Assembly (NCBI RefSeq): GCF_019697375.1
Contig: NZ_JAHCDI010000004.1
Location: 2,777,324 to 2,841,323, forward strand
From: Micromonospora tarapacensis
GTDB lineage: Bacteria > Actinomycetota > Actinomycetes > Mycobacteriales > Micromonosporaceae
Direction: 5' to 3'
DNA length: 64,000 bases
Position numbers and translations under genes: made by a program. Below the pieces are notes generated by a model. The model ran no database searches. It saw only the letters and a program-made list of their open reading frames with translations, and was not told the DNA's origin. Below, piece after piece: positions 26,464-37,428 of this stretch (position 1 is the stretch's first letter; every line of letters starts with the position of its first letter).

Positions 26464-27324
26464 ATGGTCAGCACCCCACGCACCCCCACGCTCGCCACCG
26501 CCGGCATCGTCCTGCTCGCGGTCACCGCCTGCACGCCCCAGGCCCAGCCCGCGCCTATGCCGACCGTGTCGATGGCGTGCACCAAGGACAGCCTGTCCAC
26601 CCAGACTCCGGGCAGGCTCACCATCGCCACCGACGAGCCGGCCGACCCGCCGTGGTTCGTCGACGACAAGCCCGACAACGGCGAGGGCTTCGAGTCCGCG
26701 GTGGCCTACGCGGTGGCGGAGCAGCTCGGCTACGCCCGCGACGACGTCACCTGGATCCGGGTGCGGTTCGACGCCGCCGTCGCGCCCGGGCCGAAGAACT
26801 TCGACTTCGACATCAACCAGTTCGCCGTCACCGAGGAGCGCAAGCAGGCGGTGGACTTCTCCGCCCCGTACTACCTGGTGCGGCAGACGGTGATCGCGCT
26901 GGAATCCTCCAAGATCGCTGGCATGACCGCACTGGCCGACCTGCGCGGCGCCAAGCTCGGCGCACGGGTCGGCACGACCAGCTACCAGGCGATCACCGAC
27001 GTGGTGCGGCCGACGGCCGAACCCCAGGTCTACAACAGCAACGACGACGCGAAGAAGGCACTACAGAACGGGCAGATCGACGGCCTGGTGGTGGACCTGC
27101 CCACCGCGTTCCACATCACCGGCGCGGAGATCGACGACGCGGTGATCGTCGGGCAGCTGCCCCAGGTGGGCACGCCGGAGGCGTTCGGGTTGCTGTTGGA
27201 CAAGGACTCCCCGCTCACCGGCTGCGTCAGCGCGGCGGTCGGGCAGCTCAGCAGCGAGGGCATACTCAAGCAGCTGGAGCAGCAGTGGCTGGCTCAGGTC
27301 GCGGGAGCGCCAGAACTCACGTGA
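26464..27324 (+). CDS. Amino-acid-type ABC substrate-binding lipoprotein
   Basis: A 286-residue family 3 solute-binding lipoprotein. The lipobox LAVTAC gives a lipidated Cys23 after a short signal peptide. The mature protein has the two-lobe SBP pattern: RLTIATDEPADPPWFVDDKP, FDFDINQFAVTEERKQAVDF, SAPYYLVRQTVIAL and GARVGTTSYQAITDVV. It should capture a polar amino acid or similar ligand. No permease or ATPase is adjacent, so it is an orphan binding protein. It is divergent from hisE and abuts the cassette at 27.4-32.8 kb. Confidence 0.9.
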   Translation: MVSTPRTPTLATAGIVLLAVTACTPQAQPAPMPTVSMACTKDSLSTQTPGRLTIATDEPADPPWFVDDKPDNGEGFESAVAYAVAEQLGYARDDVTWIRVRFDAAVAPGPKNFDFDINQFAVTEERKQAVDFSAPYYLVRQTVIALESSKIAGMTALADLRGAKLGARVGTTSYQAITDVVRPTAEPQVYNSNDDAKKALQNGQIDGLVVDLPTAFHITGAEIDDAVIVGQLPQVGTPEAFGLLLDKDSPLTGCVSAAVGQLSSEGILKQLEQQWLAQVAGAPELT

Positions 27325-27406
27325 GCACCGCTCAGCACCACCCCTCGCCCGATGATCGAGGCTGCCGGCGGAGGTCGCGGTTCCGGGCGCGGTGCTGGGG
27401 CGTCGG

Positions 27407-28033
27407 TCAGGCCGCACCGGTGTGCGCGGCCCCGCCCGCGACGCTCACGTTCATCGCCGGGTACGTCATTACGAGGCTCGCCTCGGCTGGCCCGTGCACC
27501 ACCTCGTACCGATGCGGCACATCGGCCGAGAACACCAGGAAATCGCCGGCGCCCGCCTCGTGTAGCGCATCGACCGGTCCGGCCCGCAACACTCCGCGGC
27601 TGACGAGCAGGTATTCCACCGTTCCGGCCGCGTGCGCCGGACTCTCCACGAAATTCCCGGGTTGTTGGATGCGTACCCGCCAGATCTCGGTGAGGACGCC
27701 GGGGCCGATGCGCTGCAACATCTCTTGTCGGCTGTAGTCCGGGGCCGGGGTGCCCCGCTGCAGGCTCGGTGCGCTCGGCACCGAGGTCGGTATGAGGTCG
27801 CCGAGCGGCAACCGCAGGGCAACGGCGATCGCCGCGATGGTCTCGATGGTCGGGTTGCCGAGGCCGGCCTCGAGTCGGGAGAGTGTCCCCTTGCTCACAT
27901 CCGCCCGCCGAGCAAGCTCGGAGACCGACATCCGGCGGGCCTCCCGGAAGCGACGGACTTCCCTACCGACCGCGGCTCCCATCCCGGCCGCGGTGGTCCC
28001 GAAGCTCTCAGCGGCTGTCGTCACGGGGTCCAT
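27407..28033 (-). CDS. XRE-family regulator with cupin domain
   Basis: A 208-residue regulator. Residues 22-75 form a Cro/C1-type helix-turn-helix (VRRFREARRMSVSELARRAD, VSKGTLSRLEAGLGNPTIET). Residues 115-195 form a small cupin (NFVESPAHAAGTVEYLLVSR, GDFLVFSADVPHRYEV), which would bind the effector. ATG 28033 lies inside the 3' end of the exporter gene (26-base overlap), so the two are co-translated. Such regulators often control neighbouring amino-acid export or catabolism genes. The palindrome at 29131-29140 in the divergent promoter is a candidate operator. Confidence 0.9.
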   Translation of the reverse strand: MDPVTTAAESFGTTAAGMGAAVGREVRRFREARRMSVSELARRADVSKGTLSRLEAGLGNPTIETIAAIAVALRLPLGDLIPTSVPSAPSLQRGTPAPDYSRQEMLQRIGPGVLTEIWRVRIQQPGNFVESPAHAAGTVEYLLVSRGVLRAGPVDALHEAGAGDFLVFSADVPHRYEVVHGPAEASLVMTYPAMNVSVAGGAAHTGAA

Positions 28034-29057
28034 TCTCGGGTATTGGTCGGCGAACGTGCCCAGACACGCTACCGTCTGGTGCCACGCCGGCCGCAGGCTG
28101 GCGCCCGGAACTCTCGACAGCCCGCCCGACGAGCGCCGACCCGACCAGCAGCAAGCCACCGAGCGCCTGGACGAGGCCGAGCGACTCGCCAGCCGCGACG
28201 ATCGCGAAGATCGTCGCGAAGATCGGCTCGGTACACAACACCAGCCCGACCCGGGTGGAGCTGGAGAGCCTTGCCGAACGCAGCTGCACGAAGAAGGCGA
28301 AGGCGGTGCCGAGTACACCGAGATAGGCGATGAGCAGCCACGATCGGCCGTCGACATCCCCGGCCACCGACCACACCGGGTCCCCCGTGAGCACCGAGGT
28401 GGATCCCGCCAGCACGATCACCACCACGAACTGGACCGCGGTGAGGTTCTGAATCGACTGGCCCCGTACGTGCCGGCCGAAGAGCGTGATCTGAACAGCT
28501 CGGATCATCGCGGCAGCCAGGATGATCAAGTCACCGGACCGCAGCTGAATGCCGTCGTGCAGCAACAGCAAAGCGCAACCGAGAAGGGCCGCGACCGTGG
28601 CGATGTATACCACCGGGGATTGCGTCCTCCGGCTGACGAATCGCTCCAACACGGGCACCAGCACCACCGAAACGGTGATGAGAAAGCCGGCGTTGGCCGC
28701 GGATGTGTACCGCACACCCACCGTCTCCAGCATGAGGATGCCGTAGAGCATCGTGCCGAAGGCCGCGCCTGTGATCAGCTCCATCCGGTTCAACCGACGC
28801 AGCGACCGAGCGGCCAGCAGGAGCACCACCGGAAGCGCGGTGAGGAAGCGCAACGCCAGGAACGCCGCAGCCGGCACGTGTTCCCCGACGGTCTGCATCA
28901 CGACGTAGCTGGAGCCCCAGATGATCGCCACGAGCAGGATCGACAGATCCGACCACAGCAGGGCGCCCTTGGTCGCGGGGCGGACAGGCCCGGCAGGAGG
29001 TGGGATGCTGGCTGCCGGCTCGGGCGGCGCCGACGTGGTGCCCCTAGGTGCTTGCAT
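28008..29057 (-). CDS. EamA/DMT-family exporter
   Basis: A 349-residue inner-membrane protein with ten predicted helices in two EamA repeats (about 37-165 and 180-315), for example WSDLSILLVAIIWGSSYVVM and FLALRFLTALPVVLLLAA. A Pro/Ala-rich cytoplasmic N-terminus and a polar C-terminus flank them. The family includes the threonine/homoserine exporter RhtA. Here it is next to a threonine-transaldolase-like enzyme and a tRNA deacylase, which suggests export of a threonine analogue; this is inference. First gene of a two-gene operon with the XRE regulator. Confidence 0.9.
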   Translation of the reverse strand: MQAPRGTTSAPPEPAASIPPPAGPVRPATKGALLWSDLSILLVAIIWGSSYVVMQTVGEHVPAAAFLALRFLTALPVVLLLAARSLRRLNRMELITGAAFGTMLYGILMLETVGVRYTSAANAGFLITVSVVLVPVLERFVSRRTQSPVVYIATVAALLGCALLLLHDGIQLRSGDLIILAAAMIRAVQITLFGRHVRGQSIQNLTAVQFVVVIVLAGSTSVLTGDPVWSVAGDVDGRSWLLIAYLGVLGTAFAFFVQLRSARLSSSTRVGLVLCTEPIFATIFAIVAAGESLGLVQALGGLLLVGSALVGRAVESSGRQPAAGVAPDGSVSGHVRRPIPENGPRDDSR

Positions 29058-29125
29058 GATCAGCTTATCCCCTCGAGATTCACCCAGTCAGGACTACAAT
29101 GTCGGAATTGCCCGATCGTCCGTAC

Positions 29126-29155
29126 ATTATAGTGATCACTTTCTAGTACTATACT
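29126..29155. promoter_or_regulatory. Divergent promoters around a palindrome
   Basis: Between the exporter (minus) and the YbaK gene (plus) lies an unusually AT-rich stretch. TATAAT on the minus strand (29126-29131) and TATACT on the plus strand (29150-29155) face outwards, separated by the perfect palindrome AGTGATCACT (29131-29140). No clear -35 boxes were found. One regulator bound at the palindrome could control both operons; the XRE/cupin protein is the obvious candidate. Confidence 0.55.
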
Positions 29156-29223
29156 GAACACGACGGTAGCCGACGCATCACATTCCGCGCTGACCGCGGT
29201 GGTGAAGTACGAGGGGATGACGC

Positions 29224-29727
29224 ATGGAGCACGAGGAGACCTACGATCGCCTGATCGCCCTACTCGACGAGAACGGTGCCACCTACCGGCTGATCGACCA
29301 CCCCGAGGAGGGCCGCACCGAGATCGTCAGCGGATATCGCGGCCACCAGGTCGCGGCTGCGGCCAAGTGCATGATCGTGATGGTCAAGCTCGGCAAGAAG
29401 GTCACGAAGTACGTCCTGGCAGTCGTCCCCGGGGATGCCCGGGTCGACCTGCAGGCGATCAAGAAGTTGTTCGGCGGCACATACATCTCCTTCGCGACGC
29501 CGGAAATCGCCGAACGGCTGTCCGGCTGTGTCGCCGGCACGATCCTGCCATTTCCCTTCAGCGATGAACTGGAACTCATCGCCGACCCGGGGATCAAGGC
29601 GTTTCCCGAGCTGTTCTTCAACGCCGCCCGGTTGGACCGGTCACTCGCACTGACCACCGACGACTACCTGCGAATCACCTCGCCGCGGTTCGAATCCATC
29701 GCGGCAGGCACCGCGATGACGGTCTGA
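29224..29727 (+). CDS. YbaK/ProX-type aminoacyl-tRNA deacylase
   Basis: A 167-residue member of the INS/YbaK superfamily of trans-editing enzymes, which hydrolyse mischarged tRNAs. Seen features are RLIDHPEEGRTEIVSGYRGH, the AAAAKCMIVMVKLGKKVTKY strand with the usual substrate-pocket Lys, and FGGTYISFATPEIAERLSGC. Relatives act on Cys- or Ala-tRNA(Pro), or on Ser/Thr-type mischarged tRNAs (ProXp-ST). Beside a threonine-transaldolase-like gene it could protect translation from a threonine analogue; that is inference. It converges on the isomerase gene with a 9-base gap. Confidence 0.88.
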   Translation: MEHEETYDRLIALLDENGATYRLIDHPEEGRTEIVSGYRGHQVAAAAKCMIVMVKLGKKVTKYVLAVVPGDARVDLQAIKKLFGGTYISFATPEIAERLSGCVAGTILPFPFSDELELIADPGIKAFPELFFNAARLDRSLALTTDDYLRITSPRFESIAAGTAMTV

Positions 29728-29736
29728 GAGCGAGCG

Positions 29737-30759
<1,023 letters not shown>

Positions 30760-30951
30760 CACGATGAACCCCCGGTCTGATGCCACGGACACCCCACGGT
30801 GGCCCATGCCGCTCCTCGGGGCATCGGACGGAAGTCACAGCGCCGGATACGTCAATGGTGCACTCTTGATTCTTCGCTCAGGCACCCACCTGTGCTCGCC
30901 GATCCCCTCTCGTAGATTCCAGACAACATCAGCGGAACGCGGGAGAGGAAC

Positions 30952-32826
30952 ATGTCGGTGCCGCAGGAGCCCATGACACTCGGTCTGATCGAGCGACTGA
31001 TCCAGCAGGAGGAACTCGAGTCGGCCGCGGTCCTCCACCTGACCGCCAACGAGACGCTACTCTCCCCTGCGGCGCAACGGGTCCTGTCGACCCCGCTGTC
31101 CAACCGCTACCTCCTCGAGCACCTGGAGATGCGGGAGGACTCCCCGTCCCGTCTGAACAACTTCCTGTATCGCGGCATGAATCGGATCAACGAGATCGAA
31201 GCGTCCGCCACAGAGGTGTGCCGGCAACTCTTCGGCGCCGAGTACGCCGAATTCCGATGTCTCTCCGGTATCCATGCGATGCAGACCACCTTCGCCGCAC
31301 TCTCCCAGCCGGGCGACAAGATCATGCGTATCTCGACGAAGGACGGCGGCCACTTCCTGACCGAACTGATCTGCCGCACTTTCGGCCGGAGCAGTTGCAC
31401 ATACGCGTACCGGGACATCTCAGAGATCGACCTTGACCGCACCCGCGAGGTGTTCGAGCGGGAACGTCCCACACTGCTGTTCCTCGACGCGATGAACTAC
31501 CTGTTCCCGTTCCCGGTGCGGGAACTGAAGGAGATGTGTGGACCGGTGCCGCTGGTCTACGACGCGTCGCACACGCTGGGCCTCATCGCCGGTGACCAGT
31601 TCCAGGATCCGCTCGGCGAGGGCGCCGACATCCTCCAGGCGAACACCCACAAGACGATGTTCGGGCCGCAGAAGGGCATCATCCTCGGCCGGAGCCGTGG
31701 TCTGATGGAACGCATCAGCTACACCCTGTCCAATGGCCTGGTCAGCAGCCAGCACACCGCGTCCGCGCTGGCGCTGTACATCGCGCTGCACGAGATGTAC
31801 ACCCACGGTCGCGAGTACGCGAGCCGGGTCATCGAGAGTGCCCGGTGTCTCGCCACCGCCCTGCACGACCGGGGTGTACCGATCCTGCAGGCTGACCGAG
31901 GGTTCACCCGCAACCACATGTTCTTCATCGACAGCAGGCCCCTCGGCGCCGGACCGGCCCTGCTGGAACGGCTGTTGCGCGCCGGAATCGCGGTGAACCG
32001 ATCCGTCGCCTTCGAGCAGACCGACACGTTGCGGTTGGGCGTCCAGGAAGTGGTCCGACGCGGGTTCACCAACGCCGACCTCAACCTCGTCGCCGACTGG
32101 TTCGCGCAGGTGCTGCTGCATGACGCGGACCCGGAACCCATCGCCCTCGCCGTGGCCGAGTTGCTCGGTCAGCGCGGCTCGATCAAGTACTGTGAGCCCG
32201 CCCCGGAGGCCACCGCGCCGTCGCCCTCCGGACCGCTCCCACGGCCCGCAACCCGGCGTTGGGCGGACATCGACCTCCGCCGAGAGTCCCTTGAGATCGA
32301 GCGTTCCGCCTTCGACGGCGCACACGCGCTGGGCCGGCTCGCCGGGATCTTCGAACACCAGACCGACTCCGCCGGAAACATCAGTTTCCACCGCGCGGGC
32401 GGTACCTTCGTCACCGCCACCGGCGCCTACATCCGGGATCTGAGGCCCACCGACTTCGTCGAACTGCGGGGCCGCACAGGTACCACGTTGCACTGTCGCG
32501 GTCCCGGTACGCCGTCCGCGGAGTCGTACATGCACTACCTCATGCGCAGCACGGTCCCCGCCGCCTTCGTCGTGCACAACCACTACATTCCCGACGACGA
32601 GGAACTCGACCGCGTGGACGTACTCGTCATCCCACCCAAGGAGTACGGCAGCGTCCAACTCGCCGAGGCCGTCGCCGAAGCGGCCCAGAAGAGTCAGGTG
32701 ATCTACGTCCGCCGACACGGCCTGGTGCTGTGGGGCGAATCCCTGGAGGAAAGCCGTGAGCTTCTCGACCGGCTGGCCTTCGCAGTGCAGGCGGCAAAGG
32801 GCGCAGACCCGGCGTGGTTGAGGTAA
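30952..32826 (+). CDS. Fluorothreonine transaldolase-like PLP/class II aldolase fusion
   Basis: A 624-residue two-domain protein. Residues 1-410 are SHMT-like: GGHFLTE (His134), VYDASHTLGLIAG (Asp204, His207) and the PLP lysine in ILQANTHKTMFGP (Lys234). Residues 435-624 are a class II aldolase domain: GNISFH, PSAES (Glu524), VVHNHY (His542, His544) and RRHGLVLWGE (His589), so zinc ligands and acid are intact. This order is that of 4-fluorothreonine transaldolase of Streptomyces cattleya, which swaps the side chain of L-threonine onto an aldehyde. Inference: the aldolase domain may make the aldehyde from a ribulose-1-phosphate and DHAP leaves. ATG 30952 follows GGAGAGG. Other PLP transaldolases lack the fused aldolase. 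Confidence 0.82.
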   Translation: MSVPQEPMTLGLIERLIQQEELESAAVLHLTANETLLSPAAQRVLSTPLSNRYLLEHLEMREDSPSRLNNFLYRGMNRINEIEASATEVCRQLFGAEYAEFRCLSGIHAMQTTFAALSQPGDKIMRISTKDGGHFLTELICRTFGRSSCTYAYRDISEIDLDRTREVFERERPTLLFLDAMNYLFPFPVRELKEMCGPVPLVYDASHTLGLIAGDQFQDPLGEGADILQANTHKTMFGPQKGIILGRSRGLMERISYTLSNGLVSSQHTASALALYIALHEMYTHGREYASRVIESARCLATALHDRGVPILQADRGFTRNHMFFIDSRPLGAGPALLERLLRAGIAVNRSVAFEQTDTLRLGVQEVVRRGFTNADLNLVADWFAQVLLHDADPEPIALAVAELLGQRGSIKYCEPAPEATAPSPSGPLPRPATRRWADIDLRRESLEIERSAFDGAHALGRLAGIFEHQTDSAGNISFHRAGGTFVTATGAYIRDLRPTDFVELRGRTGTTLHCRGPGTPSAESYMHYLMRSTVPAAFVVHNHYIPDDEELDRVDVLVIPPKEYGSVQLAEAVAEAAQKSQVIYVRRHGLVLWGESLEESRELLDRLAFAVQAAKGADPAWLR

Positions 32827-32836
32827 GCGGGTTCGG

Positions 32837-33337
32837 TCAGGTGGCGAAGCCGAGTCGCTGGTTGGCGGACGCCGCGACCTGGCGGAGGGCCAGGGCGGCG
32901 TCGAGGGCGGCCACCGTCGAGGACCAGCCCTTGTCCTCGGCGGAGCCGGGCAGGCCGGCCCGGTCGCGGGCCTGCTCGATGGTGTCCACGGTGAGCACCC
33001 CGTGGGCCACCGGCTTGCCCTCGTCCAGCGCGATCCGGGTCAGCCCGTCGGTGACCGAGCGGCAGACGTAGTCGAAGTGCGCCGTGGCGCCGCGTACCAC
33101 CACGCCGAGGGCGACCACCACATCGCAGCGCCGGGCCATGGCCTGGGCCACCACCGGCAGTTCCACCGAGCCGGCCACCCGGGCCACCACCACCCGCGCG
33201 CCACACGCCCGCGCGGCGGCCACCGCCCGGTCCAGCATGTTATCGGTCAGCTCACCGTGCCACCGCGCGGCCACCACACCGACGGTCATCCCGCTCGCGT
33301 CGACCGGGGTGGACCCCGGCTCGCCGAAACCCGCCAT
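32837..33337 (-). CDS. ribH: 6,7-dimethyl-8-ribityllumazine synthase
   Basis: A 166-residue lumazine synthase that joins the ribityl-aminopyrimidine with dihydroxybutanone phosphate. It has the motif VVVRGATAHFDYVC (catalytic His) and the ribityl-binding LGVVVRG strand. Last gene of the riboflavin operon, 5 bases after ribBA. It ends 10 bases from the end of the transaldolase-like gene, convergent, with no terminator visible in that gap. Confidence 0.97.
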   Translation of the reverse strand: MAGFGEPGSTPVDASGMTVGVVAARWHGELTDNMLDRAVAAARACGARVVVARVAGSVELPVVAQAMARRCDVVVALGVVVRGATAHFDYVCRSVTDGLTRIALDEGKPVAHGVLTVDTIEQARDRAGLPGSAEDKGWSSTVAALDAALALRQVAASANQRLGFAT

Positions 33338-37049: not shown

Positions 37050-37204
37050 CGCCTGCCCTGCCCTCTCGCTCTTGCGCGCAGGCGGGGAGATCGGCCGGGT
37101 GGCCGCGGGCAGGCAGCGGAAGTCGGGGTACGGCACAGCCGCCCCGGCGGGGCCCGTGCGCGCCGGAGCCCGGCGAGCCACCCGGCCCCTTCCGTCCCGC
37201 GCGC

Positions 37205-37368
37205 TGTCTCCCATCCGGACTGTCTGGGCGCGGACGAACCGCCCCCAACCGTCGGCCCCGGATTCTCACCAGGTCCACCGGGCGGACGAACCGCTCCCGG
37301 GTCGCGGGCTTACCACGGTCGGACCGTGGATCACCGCCGGTTCGGAATTTCACCGAGTCCCGCCAGCG
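37205..37368 (-). ncRNA. FMN riboswitch (RFN element)
   Basis: Read on the minus strand, the conserved RFN core is all present in order: CTCGGTGAAATTCCGAACCG, GGTAAGCCCGCGA, GGTGAGAATCCGGGGCCGAC and AGTCCGGATGGGAGA. The stretch ends about 155 bases before the ribD start, so FMN binding can control the whole ribD-ribE-ribM-ribBA-ribH operon by termination or by blocking translation. The gap to ribD contains G/C-rich hairpin-forming sequence. Confidence 0.95.
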
Positions 37369-37428
37369 CGTGGTGGGTACTGAAGGAAGTCTTACACGCC
37401 CGGCGGGCTGTCGGGCCACCCGGGCGAG

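Follow-up and report, generated by a model that had tools for sequence, protein, structure and literature searches.

The window analysed here is a 64,000-nucleotide stretch of the Micromonospora tarapacensis genome (positions 2777324–2841323 of contig NZ_JAHCDI010000004.1, hereafter C4). It carries, flanked by ribH and the gene for a solute-binding protein, a block of five genes encoding an XRE-family regulator, an EamA exporter, a trans-editing deacylase, an MtnA-type isomerase and a fusion of a serine hydroxymethyltransferase (SHMT) with a class II aldolase. This block is very probably an fth module that forms 4-fluorothreonine, for which a fluorinase locus elsewhere on the same 5.6 Mb contig would act as supplier in trans. 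Gene content, homology, conserved residues and arrangement, co-occurrence and the insertion site provide the direct evidence, from which we infer the reactions, their product and how they are regulated.

All five genes are open, intact and full length, and profile matches and positions bear out the families and flanking genes that an earlier, sequence-only reading of the window had assigned:

27407–27979, minus strand: regulator of the XRE family with a weak match to a cupin domain (uncertain start, the frame being open to 28357)
28008–29057, minus strand: FthC-type EamA exporter (PF00892, 103.2 bits)
29224–29727, plus strand: FthB-type trans-editing deacylase of the INS/YbaK superfamily (PF04073, 69.1 bits)
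29737–30807, minus strand: MtnA-type isomerase (TIGR00512, 349.7 bits against a cut-off of 279; likely start at residue 17)
30952–32826, plus strand: putative fluorothreonine transaldolase (FTase), an SHMT and class II aldolase fusion (TIGR04506; likely start at residue 8, position 30973)
27352–32835, strand not applicable: approximate extent of the probably acquired block, from DNA similarity borders, gene absence in relatives and low third-codon GC
26464–27324, plus strand: solute-binding protein gene, left flank, outside the pathway
32837–33337: ribH, right flank

The XRE gene lies just after the EamA gene on the minus strand; the deacylase gene is divergent from the latter and convergent with mtnA, which in turn is divergent from the fusion gene, and the end of the fusion gene is 10 bases from that of ribH. 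With genes on both strands, the block would comprise at least four transcription units.

The predicted transaldolase

The fusion scores 1111.5 bits against the FTase profile TIGR04506 (cut-off 650) over residues 8–609, and consists of an SHMT-like pyridoxal phosphate (PLP) domain (approximately residues 1–415) and a class II aldolase-like metal domain (the A domain; approximately residues 436–615). In a tree with 29 FTase rows and, on the other side, 13 SHMT-like rows, some on long branches, it falls on the FTase side with support of 100/99, its nearest relatives being the proteins of Paractinoplanes deccanensis and Actinoplanes N902-109. The sequence-only reading had envisaged a phylogeny against FTase, ObiH, LipK and AbmH: the grouping with FTases, apart from SHMTs, is clear, whereas the other three proteins are absent from the tree. 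The score and the tree position together reject a plain SHMT or threonine aldolase identity. The fusion is 62% identical to the Streptomyces cattleya protein and 66% to the Nocardia brasiliensis FTase, and it keeps the PLP lysine, K234, and the A-domain residues N476, E524, H542, H544, E564 and H589 (all but E524 being mapped to the MA37 FTase numbering by motif only). By profile and phylogeny, then, it is a fluorothreonine transaldolase, with predicted turnover of fluoroacetaldehyde and L-threonine.

Homologues of this FTase with 53–69% identity (P0011, P0064 and P0072) also occur under the names of a Gemmatimonadaceae metagenome-assembled genome (MAG), a Micrarchaeota MAG and Candidatus Kentrum.

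Deacylase, exporter, isomerase and regulator

For comparison, the S. cattleya stretch around FTase (L035) was located by tblastn, the record carrying no gene annotation there. The window deacylase is 71% identical over 161 residues to the product of the gene adjoining that of FTase in S. cattleya, and 91 and 88–89% identical to its counterparts in two family genomes, P. deccanensis (G021) and G023, respectively. Likewise, the EamA protein is 67% identical over 292 residues to the S. cattleya protein encoded next but one to FTase, and 77 and 72% identical in G021 and G023. YbaK proper, the Cys-tRNA(Pro) deacylase, is rejected as an identity for the former, as the YbaK_EbsC profile gives 46.1 bits against a cut-off of 153.25. 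According to PMC7408626 and PMC7162832, FthB is a deacylase of aminoacyl-tRNA and FthC exports 4-fluorothreonine, both being conserved in these loci. Judged by position and sequence, the window deacylase is the FthB orthologue, its preference for fluorothreonyl-tRNA being predicted, and the EamA protein is taken, by orthology, to be an FthC-type exporter. The earlier question of kinship with FthB is thereby answered at the level of sequence, through the 71% identity and the shared neighbours.

The isomerase is the sole PF01008 member found in its own genome. It is of the type encoded next to FTase in Actinoplanes relatives, being 74 and 76% identical to the FTase-adjacent MtnA proteins of the G021 and G023 clusters, respectively, and 50–55% identical to ten of nineteen other Micromonospora MtnA proteins; the family itself (TIGR00512, E 1e-20) is present in 20 of 160 Micromonospora genomes, in 18 of them over the cut-off. 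Because it is nearer to the cluster proteins than to those of its own genus, MtnA presumably came with the module, and its expected substrate is 5-fluoro-5-deoxyribose 1-phosphate.

The XRE protein matches PF01381 with 50 bits and Cupin_2 with 23.2 bits, the latter under the cut-off of 27.2. It is 80% identical in G023, where its gene is also placed after that of the EamA protein, and 77–78% identical in G021, where it is in two pieces; it is likely to be the regulator of the module.

The remote fluorinase locus

A DUF62 search of the genome returned three matches at two places. One is a protein of 298 residues (C4:170308–171204) that scores 533.6 bits against the solved 5'-fluoro-5'-deoxyadenosine synthase 1rqp, which we take to be the S. 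cattleya enzyme, and that aligns to it over residues 4–295 with one one-residue gap, whereas chains of the chlorinase group give 172–180 bits, in two stretches; on these scores a chlorinase identity is rejected in favour of fluorinase. A second DUF62 protein, at C4:3520207, is assigned to the family only. The FTase gene lies approximately 2.64 Mb from the fluorinase gene on C4, the surroundings of which form a further feature:

C4:160501–192200: fluorinase locus including the FlK-type gene (gene content by homology)

The neighbours comprise genes for an adenine phosphoribosyltransferase, cyclase-family and YmdB-family proteins, a CPA2 antiporter, a dihydroxy-acid dehydratase, a PfkB kinase, MetK, a methyltransferase, a 2-keto-4-pentenoate-hydratase-like protein, a short-chain dehydrogenase/reductase (SDR), an HpaI-type aldolase, S-adenosylhomocysteine (SAH) hydrolase, an MTAP-type phosphorylase, a second EamA protein and IleRS; the MetK, SDR and MTAP frames are open further upstream than the called starts. 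Thus, both enzymes for which the sequence-only reading had proposed to search the rest of the genome, a DUF62 fluorinase and a nucleoside phosphorylase, have candidates here. Some 21 kb from the fluorinase, at C4:191842, is an FlK-type thioesterase gene, the product of which scores 109.9 bits against the FlK family and 98.9 bits against FlK of the PDB, and is the best of the three FlK-family members in the genome. In the window and the fluorinase stretches (L037 and L038), three matches pass gathering thresholds, and no fluoride riboswitch is among them.

Distribution and probable acquisition of the module

Co-occurrence was assessed in a family draw of 354 genomes and a class-level draw of 394, with at most three first-look FTase candidates scored per genome, so that misses are possible; loose TIGR04506 matches, which arise in 353 of the 354 genomes and in all 14 controls, were left uncounted in favour of those over the cut-off. 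By this measure FTase is present in three family genomes, M. tarapacensis itself (G000), G021 and G023, and each also has a fluorinase (E 1e-60 or better), the only other family genome with one being G286 (Micromonospora sp. FIMYZ51). With four fluorinase genomes among 354 in the family, and two among 364 in the order (M. tarapacensis included), biological fluorination is rare. At E 1e-150, FTase was found at class level in M. tarapacensis only, and a contig scan with a single protein as query found one relative.

In both G021 and G023, the five block genes recur in identical order and orientation approximately 3 kb from the fluorinase, the clusters continuing with antiporter, PfkB, MetK, SAH hydrolase and phosphorylase genes. 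Given the identical gene set, order and orientation in two further genomes, the grouping is more than chance, and the co-occurrence in relatives on which the sequence-only reading had staked its case is borne out. The G286 locus encodes proteins mostly 90–97% identical to those of the M. tarapacensis fluorinase locus. In a fifth fluorinase locus, on a 24.9 kb contig of G884, FthB- and FthC-type genes lie near the fluorinase, and no match to FTase, MtnA, dehydratase or HpaI-type genes was found on that contig.

FthB-type matches (E 1e-25 or better) are more widespread, being found in 26 of the 354 family genomes; those of at least 88% identity are confined to the three FTase genomes, the next being 65% or less. 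Two FthB-type deacylases lie beside FlK-type thioesterases (L091:3804–5185 in G339 and L092:3846–5216 in G336; FlK scores of 133 and 120 bits, respectively). They are 64–67% identical to the proteins of the window and of S. cattleya, and neither genome has an FTase over the cut-off or a fluorinase match; these loci may be immunity-only islands directed against the fluorometabolites of other organisms. In G171, similarly devoid of FTase and fluorinase matches, an FthB-type deacylase gene directly follows an EamA exporter gene (L095:2145–3646), the product of which is 35–37% identical to the FthC-type proteins, and at L094:4728–5511 and L096:4694–5492 such deacylase genes directly follow small regulator genes that appear, by eye, to be ArsR-like.

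The insertion site was defined by comparison of the 14 kb around ribH in eight Micromonospora genomes chosen from earlier matches, in none of which were any of the five block genes found. In three of the eight, the solute-binding gene is present and ABC permease and ATPase genes come after it (in one case with two further genes before ribH); in the ribH stretch of the other five the solute-binding gene has no match. DNA similarity stops at 27317–27351 on the left (in the three genomes with the solute-binding gene) and resumes at 32826–32883 on the right (in all eight). Moreover, the third-codon GC of the five block genes is 0.80–0.86, against a mean of 0.93 (SD 0.03, lowest 0.82) for the other 46 genes called in the window. 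From the absence of the block at ribH in relatives, the similarity borders and the low third-codon GC, it was probably acquired, replacing transporter genes; displacement of the permease and ATPase genes would explain the orphan binding protein.

Proposed pathway and alternative explanations

Modelled on S. cattleya, MA37 and N. brasiliensis, as these are described in PMC7162832, PMC7408626, PMC5947533 and PMC3999930, the pathway would begin with the conversion of S-adenosylmethionine and fluoride to 5'-fluoro-5'-deoxyadenosine by the fluorinase, from which the MTAP/FlB-type phosphorylase would generate 5-fluoro-5-deoxyribose 1-phosphate. The MtnA protein of the window would isomerize this to the ribulose 1-phosphate (5-FDRulP), an aldolase would free fluoroacetaldehyde, and FTase would exchange the latter for the acetaldehyde unit of L-threonine, yielding 4-fluorothreonine. 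Self-protection would be afforded by FthC, through export of the product, and by FthB, through clearance of tRNA mischarged with it. The sequence-only reading had left the C4 substituent of its threonine analogue as fluoro, chloro, hydroxy or methylthio; that reading is supported, and fluoro is now the likeliest, on evidence drawn from sequence.

Several points weigh against this interpretation. N. brasiliensis has a comparable cluster, yet no fluorometabolite was detected in its cultures, according to PMC3999930. The MA37 FTase is promiscuous in vitro, accepting several aldehydes and forming 4-chloro- and 4-hydroxythreonine, as reported in PMC7162832, and membership of the family therefore leaves the substrate unfixed. 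The solved chains nearest to the fusion by sequence are an M. jannaschii SHMT (181.1 bits) and then 7k34 (129.9 bits); in a fold comparison the matches are to the SHMT domain, with SHMTs making up most of the list, and the family of the aldolase-like domain rests on its sequence. The identities of the S. cattleya FthB and FthC genes were themselves assigned from position and family. Finally, no dedicated 5-FDRulP aldolase is seen in the window or the fluorinase locus, which leaves a gap in the route to fluoroacetaldehyde; all other steps have a candidate gene.

Of the alternatives, the production of another 4-substituted threonine (4-chloro, 4-hydroxy or 4-methylthio), from a chlorinase, glycolaldehyde or methylthioadenosine salvage, is very improbable. 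The promiscuity of the MA37 enzyme would permit it, MtnA belongs to a methionine-salvage family, and the second DUF62 protein could be a second halide enzyme; however, the genome has an FlA-type fluorinase with an FlK-type thioesterase nearby, and the five genes adjoin a fluorinase in both G021 and G023.

We consider it very improbable that the acquired block is silent, or a relic serving resistance only, with FthB and FthC guarding against the fluorothreonine of neighbouring organisms while the pathway lies idle. Such a role would suit the 23 of the 26 family genomes with FthB-type matches that have neither an FTase over the cut-off nor a fluorinase match (among six such loci inspected, an FlK-type gene is nearby in two and an EamA gene in one), as well as the silence of N. 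brasiliensis in culture; FTase and MtnA, though, are needless for resistance, and here both are intact, FTase with its catalytic residues kept. That the fusion is a plain SHMT or threonine aldolase among unrelated neighbours, five genes without a common function, can be dismissed almost entirely since, for all that the separate transcription units and the predominance of SHMTs among solved relatives might suggest it, it is already contradicted by the sequence.

The missing aldolase step

The aldolase of the fluorometabolite pathway has been called elusive (PMC3999930). The M. tarapacensis genome encodes three class II aldolases besides FTase (C4:1597173, C4:2028695 and C4:2247180), none near either locus; the last is fused to a class III aminotransferase (L048:1447–3537), an unusual domain pair. 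One possibility is that the FTase A domain itself provides the missing activity. Its nearest solved relatives, using a four-sequence profile, are L-fuculose phosphate aldolases (FucA) and other class II aldolases (best score 31.0 bits). The residues that we take to bind phosphate in FucA (G28, N29, T43, G44, S71 and S72) are mostly kept in the A-domain alignment, and G475, N476, G491 and S522 of FTase are invariant in 28 FTases, as is E524, which occupies the position of E73, presumably the catalytic residue of FucA. This conservation leaves room for sugar-phosphate cleavage by FTase. For the MA37 enzyme, the A domain has been proposed to dehydrate fluoroacetaldehyde hydrate (PMC7162832).

A second possibility, which we regard as doubtful but worth stating, is that Micromonospora also makes the fluoroacetaldehyde used by FTase through a phosphate-free, Dahms-like route. 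Here, 5-fluoro-5-deoxyribose would be oxidized to 5-fluororibonate (5-FHPA, a known MA37 metabolite), from which a dihydroxy-acid dehydratase would form a 2-keto-3-deoxy acid, and an HpaI-type aldolase would cleave the latter to pyruvate and fluoroacetaldehyde. Genes for a dehydratase, an SDR, a cyclase-family protein and an HpaI-type aldolase are present in the fluorinase loci of both Micromonospora genomes. G286 has, in addition to this locus, an FlK-type protein 90% identical to that of M. tarapacensis, but neither a TIGR00512 match at E 1e-20 nor an FTase that passes the cut-off; by sequence, therefore, the isomerase route is closed to it, and a phosphate-free route would explain why its fluorinase locus and FlK-type gene are unaccompanied by MtnA and FTase. 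Among the matches listed, dehydratase and HpaI-type genes are on contigs of equal size three times (18,809, 10,164 and 19,983 bases), and an HpaI-type gene and an FTase are both on 38,274-base contigs once (both from Amycolatopsis sp. H20-H5); this suggests shared contigs, and does not imply the presence of a fluorinase on them. Of the five fluorinase loci examined, however, two (G000 and G286) have the dehydratase and HpaI-type genes and three (G021, G023 and G884) do not, which counts against a general link. Among the papers that a literature search on fluoroacetaldehyde, aldolase and fluorinase listed, none mentions '2-keto-3-deoxy'.

The same genes could instead serve a pathway of the salinosporamide type, leading to a halogenated building block. 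As described in PMC5947533, FdrB/SalH, FdrC/SalM and FdrD/SalO of the MA37 fdr and Salinispora sal systems belong to the families of the dehydratase, SDR and cyclase of the M. tarapacensis fluorinase locus, respectively; the MA37 fdr genes lie far from the fl cluster, whereas their counterparts here are inside the fluorinase locus, which adds the HpaI-type aldolase and the ketopentenoate-hydratase-like gene. The likeness is by family only.

Two proteins of approximately 800 residues, P0129 and P0220, combine SDR and dihydroxy-acid dehydratase domains in one chain, i.e. two of the supposed steps of the ribonate branch.

Relation to known systems

The fth/fl system is already known; what is new is a member in Micromonospora, with four gene roles well supported and that of the regulator likely. 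The S. cattleya fth genes resemble the block in that those for FTase and the FthB- and FthC-type proteins are adjacent, and PMC7162832 implies a distance between FTase and fluorinase there, as is the case for the split loci of M. tarapacensis. They differ in that they reside on the plasmid pSCAT, rather than beside ribH on a 5.6 Mb contig, and in that no MtnA or XRE-cupin match was found in the 25.7 kb around FTase. The fl/fth clusters of P. deccanensis and G023 are the closest in arrangement, their five proteins being 72–91% identical to those of the window, but each is a single cluster. The N. brasiliensis nob cluster, as described in PMC3999930, shares FTase, an MtnA-type isomerase, a permease, an adenine phosphoribosyltransferase, a fluorinase, a phosphorylase, an SAH hydrolase and an antiporter; it too is one cluster and its authors found no FlK homologue, whereas M. 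tarapacensis has an FlK-type gene. Among publications naming both fluorinase and Micromonospora, no such Micromonospora cluster is apparent from the titles and the opening lines of the abstracts, and a search on FlK homologues and resistance gave no match.

M. tarapacensis is a new candidate organofluorine producer. Moreover, two Micromonospora species with closely similar fluorinase loci, only one of which has the amino-acid module, constitute a natural comparison that would separate the steps before fluoroacetaldehyde from those after it. The dehydratase and HpaI-type aldolase are a testable candidate for the elusive aldolase step (PMC3999930), and a phosphate-free branch, if true, would raise the importance of the finding.

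Outside the block, the window also contains a flavin mononucleotide (FMN) riboswitch near the riboflavin genes (37199–37371, minus strand; 73.1 bits).

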